Shown: in pieces, positions 20,424 to 20,495 of the stretch
Layout: every line of letters begins with the position of its first letter
Numbering within the stretch: the first letter of the stretch is position 1
Translations under genes and position numbers: made by a program
Origin: a virus
Strand: one strand, 5' to 3'
IMG/VR virus record: IMGVR_UViG_3300025000_000437
Location: 1 to 22,627 of that record
Length of the DNA stretch: 22,627 bases
Notes under the pieces: generated by a model
The model's database searches: none
What the model saw: only the letters and a program-made list of their open reading frames with translations
Told to the model about the DNA's origin: nothing

Positions 20424-20495
20424 TGCTCCGAGAGGGAATCGAACGCCTCGTTCTCCGCCTAGAATGCGCGGGCTTTACCGCTTAGCTATCGGAGC
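20424..20495 (-). ncRNA. tRNA-like element (noncanonical tRNA or YrlA-type mimic)
   Basis: The 7-bp acceptor stem GCTCCGA/TCGGAGC is perfect, with A after it and no encoded CCA. T8, A14, G15, G18-G19 and A21 of the D arm, and the T loop TTCGATT, are all in place, so the elbow is tRNA-like. But the anticodon arm is wrong: CCGC/GCGG closes a 9-base loop GCATTCTAG, and neither a TCT nor a TTC anticodon fits a proper 5-bp stem with T33. The T stem has a bulged C (GAGG-C-G). It sits on the same strand just after Ro60. A worn tRNA gene is the alternative. Confidence 0.62.

Follow-up and report, generated by a model that had tools for sequence, protein, structure and literature searches.

A tRNA-derived element with irregular stems beside a viral Ro60 gene

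tRNA-like modules and viral Ro60 loci

tRNA mimicry of the YrlA type is already known (PMC8394870), and the tRNA-like domain of YrlA has been proposed to act as a competitive inhibitor, or decoy, of an anticodon nuclease (PMC7790460). TROVE proteins, the group to which Ro60 belongs, have been noted in jumbo phages (PMC7824862), and PMC10264068 describes phage tRNAs in which anticodon-loop mutations allow evasion of nucleases. Here we describe a tRNA-like element (Table 1) in a 22,627-nt stretch of viral DNA (IMG/VR record IMGVR_UViG_3300025000_000437; the window). Like YrlA, the element combines a tRNA elbow lacking a normal anticodon arm with an adjacent Ro60 gene. In YrlA, however, the tRNA part is borne by a long Ro60-binding stem, whereas the element has a tRNA-like module unattached to any such stem, and the window encodes its Y RNAs upstream, with no tRNA module in either. 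The element also resembles the tRNA-like domain of tmRNA in its acceptor and T arm with the rest degenerate, but it differs in having no tag frame, no long insert and no tmRNA call from Rfam or ARAGORN. Similarly, it shares an unusual anticodon loop with the nuclease-evading phage tRNAs, although PMC10264068 reports mutations of the loop, whereas the alterations in the element extend to the anticodon stem and T stem.

The cluster reads, in order, two Y RNAs, Ro60, the tRNA-like element and an uncatalogued structured RNA. The Ro60 gene matches Pfam PF05731 (2.2e-17), phrog_850 (7e-42) and PDB TROVE chains (2.7e-25). Ro60-binding stems were scored with position weight matrices (PWMs) for a 5' half like GTGGCGTAGA..TACTTC and a 3' half like CTGT..CGCTTGTTCCC, for which member 5' halves score 17–34. 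The 5' half of Y RNA 1 scored 21.6, against a maximum of 16.2 in 1 Mb of random sequence, and the two halves of Y RNA 2 scored 19.1 (5') and 15.2 (3'). A strong hairpin without a T tract (GGGGGCTGTAACCCGAAAGGGCAGCCCCC, 20570-20607, minus strand) lies between Ro60 and the element.

Relatives of this Ro60 are encoded at 30 viral loci, one of which (L002) is identical to the window across 2948 common bases. Y RNA 5' halves were found near Ro60 in 24 of the 27 viral loci examined, mostly several in tandem; arrays at L003-L031 range from one to six halves per locus, with short and long forms mixed. In some of these Y RNAs the Y stem is interrupted by a tRNA-like module, and 18 of 65 halves scored as "long", the class with such a module. 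The 5' half at the viral loci resembles the published YrlA motif, a resemblance that serves as a lead and not as a test. At one locus (L016, 2067-2190) a tRNA in normal D-to-T order sits within the Y stem. At another (L013, 4636-4766) a tRNA with ordinary acceptor ends appears to carry, in place of its anticodon arm, an entire Y RNA stem whose order is reversed, with the 3' half first and a CCCC-GTACA-GGGG cap, an apparent circular permutation of YrlA.

Table 1. Coordinates of the element, its parts and its neighbours in the window
Feature	Position	Strand	Basis or remark
Sigma-70-like promoter of Y RNAs	22220..22247	-	TTGACA-16-TATAAT, 12/12
Y RNA 1, short, without tRNA module	22150..22213	-	PWM and fold
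Y RNA 2, short, without tRNA module	22075..22134	-	PWM and fold
Intrinsic-terminator-like hairpin 3' of Y RNAs	22043..22060	-	
Ro60/TROVE RNA-binding protein gene	20642..22021	-	Upstream of tRNA-like element, same strand
Leader hairpin ACGGATGA...TCATCCGT	20507..20540	-	Just upstream of tRNA-like element; fold z -2.8
tRNA-like element	20424..20495	-	Rfam tRNA; ARAGORN tRNA-Glu(ttc); Infernal alignment in UCU register
Acceptor stem	20489-20495 with 20425-20431	-	
D arm	20472-20486	-	
Anticodon arm	20455-20471	-	
T arm	20432-20449	-	Bulged C at 20445
TACCGCT 7-mer	20409..20415	-	Spacer between tRNA-like element and next structured RNA
Uncatalogued structured RNA (P1-P4)	20279..20400	-	Downstream of tRNA-like element; conserved in L033/L034
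Hairpin AACCACCC..GGGTGGTT then TGTTTT	20243..20277	-	Terminator-like cluster end, from sequence

Structure and identity of the tRNA-like element

An earlier, sequence-only reading had proposed a tRNA mimic or worn tRNA here, and matches of both Rfam and ARAGORN confirm a tRNA-derived element, running from 20495 to 20424 on the minus strand. The Rfam tRNA model (RF00005) matches over its full length at 38.9 bits (E 4e-5), above its gathering cut-off of 29 bits, and ARAGORN, which that reading had named as a check, called tRNA-Glu(ttc). The minus strand reads GCTCCGA TA GCTAAGCGGTAAAGC CCGCGCATTCTAGGCGG AGAAC GAGGCGTTCGATTCCCTC TCGGAGC A. Most of the parts described earlier are present as claimed: an intact acceptor stem of seven perfect base pairs, a D loop (AGCGGTA) with A14, G15, G18, G19 and A21 in place, an intact TTCGATT T loop and a T stem from which one C bulges. 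Thus the 7-bp acceptor, the G18G19 D loop and the TTCRANN T loop of RF00005 are kept, the bulge interrupts what would be a 5-bp T stem, and no CCA is encoded. A tmRNA identity was ruled out, as neither Rfam, ARAGORN nor Infernal gave a tmRNA match and there is no tag-encoding insert.

The claim that the sequence allows no standard anticodon arm was overstated, because two registers each permit an arm of 4 bp. ARAGORN pairs CCGC with GCGG around a G.G mismatch, giving anticodon UUC with A33 and U37, whereas the Infernal alignment, shifted by one base, gives anticodon UCU with U33 and A37 on four pairs plus a bulged stem base. RF00005 has a 5-bp anticodon stem, a 7-nt loop and U33; here the stem has four pairs with a mismatch or bulge, and U33 appears only in the UCU register. 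The anticodon arm is therefore irregular, not absent. The minimum free energy (MFE) fold of the element is no better than that of shuffled sequence (z -0.64), and a cloverleaf with the 4-bp anticodon arm lies 1.1 kcal/mol above it.

To place these irregularities, we compared 92 ARAGORN-called tRNAs, the element included, from six Ro60-phage loci, two phage tRNA arrays and the window. T33 is found in 85 of the 92, and A33 in the element alone (ARAGORN register); a 5-bp T stem and an encoded CCA are each present in 85/92. The element has the weakest T stem of the set (only three pairs as drawn by ARAGORN), and it also has a 4-bp anticodon stem, a pyrimidine at position 37 (UUC register) and no CCA, a combination of defects that is unique among the 92. 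In bit score it is unremarkable, as related Ro60-phage tRNAs score about 28–74 bits.

The element probably derives from tRNA-Arg(UCU). This origin is favored by the nearest phage matches, which are weak (74–75% identity, E 0.02–0.06) and fall on tRNA-Arg(UCU) of Stenotrophomonas phages, by the UCU anticodon of the Infernal register and by codon usage, with AGA and AGG together making up 40% of Arg codons in the window's genes. The tRNA-Arg(UCU) of Stenotrophomonas phage Moby (MN095772) resembles the element in size, D loop, TTCGATT T loop, TTCTA anticodon-loop core and an acceptor that begins with G1. It differs in that its anticodon stem, which is clean and closes the loop CTTCTAA, and its T stem both have 5 bp, whereas the stems of the element are broken and it lacks CCA.

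Could the element be a working phage tRNA for Arg (UCU) or Glu (UUC) whose bulged stems are tolerated and whose CCA is added by a host enzyme? Its score above the Rfam cut-off, the equally low scores of other phage tRNAs, an AGA/AGG usage that would suit a UCU tRNA and a cloverleaf so close to the MFE are all consistent with this. However, its combination of defects is found in no other tRNA of the comparison set, ARAGORN and Infernal disagree on its anticodon register, and the version in a sister phage (see below) is not callable as a tRNA. We consider a working tRNA unlikely.

The sequence-only reading had also raised the possibility of an RNA switch between the D loop and a downstream 7-mer. 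TACCGCT does complement the D loop exactly, and this 7-nt match is what speaks for a switch. Unlike the tRNA match, which clearly exceeds chance, the complement does not: 2–8% of shuffles contain one (p=0.021 for the D arm, p=0.078 for the whole tRNA). The predicted pairing probability is only 0.002–0.003 in a longer transcript, and TACCGCT sits in spacer that a maturing tRNA would lose by trimming. The proposed switch is thus unsupported, and we regard it as extremely improbable.

A sister phage and the downstream structured RNA

A comparison is offered by a sister phage (contig 3300025009_000320; L058) whose terminase is 96% identical to that of the window. At the same place it has an unchanged leader hairpin, the same acceptor stem and a tRNA-like body of 66 nt, for which neither Infernal nor ARAGORN returned a tRNA call. 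The sister element is shorter, its body is more altered than that of the window's element, and its MFE fold is a clean four-way junction. No Ro60 gene was found within the sister's 29-kb fragment. The leader hairpin, identical in the alignment of the two, was found in these two phages only. An identical 43-nt leader might suggest that selection on the element is strong, but the two genomes are mosaic, with replaced genes alternating with many short stretches of good conservation, so the leader may simply be one of these stretches.

Searches for intermediates gave little more: a degenerate tRNA pattern matched a near-identical contig only, and BLAST of the tRNA-like region against phages found no match. 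The collections searched hold only two distinct sequences of the element, and decay and mimicry are therefore not separable by rates. Elsewhere, a comparison of two Ro60 loci (L004 and L009) finds a tRNA-Glu adjoining Ro60 cleanly present in one and absent from the other, indicating that tRNAs at the Ro60-adjacent position are gained and lost.

Two further features of the phage pair are of note. The sister carries a second tRNA-like sequence (3815-4045, minus strand) with acceptor TCATGCG/CGCATGA, a perfect T arm and about 150 extra nt between its D-like and T arms, which received no tRNA or tmRNA call. The window encodes, at 18342-19337 (minus strand), a protein with many eleven-residue repeats (EYEKVRAPAWA...), the sister copy of which has 82–88% DNA identity.

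Downstream of the element, the structured RNA is conserved as DNA and not as protein in two contigs, L033 and L034, which are identical to each other here; the L033 counterpart lies at 2969-3095 in a phage context different from that of the window. Four helices can be drawn, with six compensatory pairs (five in P4 and one in P2) and a conserved loop, AAAATAAA....GAATAT. A 61-aa ORF overlapping it (20216-20401, minus strand) was rejected as a gene, as L033 keeps the DNA and the compensating pairs without the ORF. By eye, the L033 copy appears to have a promoter-like sequence of its own. An Rfam search of 20279-20400 gave no match, BLAST against phages and plasmids likewise found none, and scanning viral and bacterial contigs with relaxed patterns for further relatives yielded only chance matches or none. 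The minus strand carries the ten-base sequence TCGGAGCAAC twice, once at the 3' end of the tRNA-like element (20422-20431) and once in the P4 hairpin (20281-20290), a repeat length attained in 38 of 5000 shuffles.

Interpretation of the element

The sequence-only reading had left two explanations side by side, a tRNA mimic dependent on its elbow and a worn tRNA. Our results fit the second better, whereas support for the first is circumstantial, with no Ro60-binding stem to go with it. In or around the element the best PWM scores were 4.4 for the 5' half and 5.0 for the 3' half. Given these scores, and with the window's own Y RNAs upstream of Ro60, the element is ruled out as the Y RNA of the locus.

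A stand-alone mimic, consisting of elbow and acceptor only, might instead work with Ro60 and PNPase or, as a decoy, divert anticodon nucleases or tRNA-modifying enzymes. The Ro60 gene directly upstream on the same strand would suit such a role, as would the retention of every elbow position, the decoy function proposed for the YrlA domain and the many related-locus Y RNAs that carry a tRNA-like module missing from the window's two. Against it stand the lack of a Ro60-binding stem, the sister phage with no Ro60 in its fragment and the plain tRNAs that occupy the same spot in other phages, and we judge a mimic of this kind improbable. A bolder variant, to which we assign a smaller chance still, is a Y RNA split in two, in which module-less Y RNAs hold Ro60 and a separate downstream mimic, reduced to the elbow, acts in trans, where its targets may be PNPase, tRNA-modifying enzymes or anticodon nucleases. 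If true, a trans-acting elbow mimic would show phages disarming tRNA-targeting defenses or steering RNA decay.

We favor, with moderate confidence, a model in which the element is a worn phage tRNA under relaxed selection, probably derived from tRNA-Arg(UCU). Its unusual stems, the missing CCA, the more altered sister element and the gain and loss of tRNAs beside Ro60 all point this way. In this model, the acceptor stem and elbow loops would have been kept while the anticodon stem and T stem lost their proper form and the CCA end disappeared; the element would be transcribed together with its cluster neighbors and might still undergo RNase P cleavage and elbow modification, and its decoding would be poor or nil. 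Nonetheless, several observations run counter to a worn tRNA. A score of 38.9 bits falls within the range of related phage tRNAs, and the element may thus still work. All elbow determinants are intact, which unconstrained decay does not particularly favor, and the predicted four-way junction of the sister hints at kept structure. The Arg-tRNA matches are, as noted, weak.

In summary, tRNA homology, irregular stems and a place in an RNA-rich cluster characterize this element, and its loss of decoding, relaxed selection and Arg origin are what we infer from them. A worn tRNA would be ordinary phage biology. The surrounding cluster, with its viral Ro60, tandem Y RNAs and uncatalogued structured RNA, holds more interest than the element.
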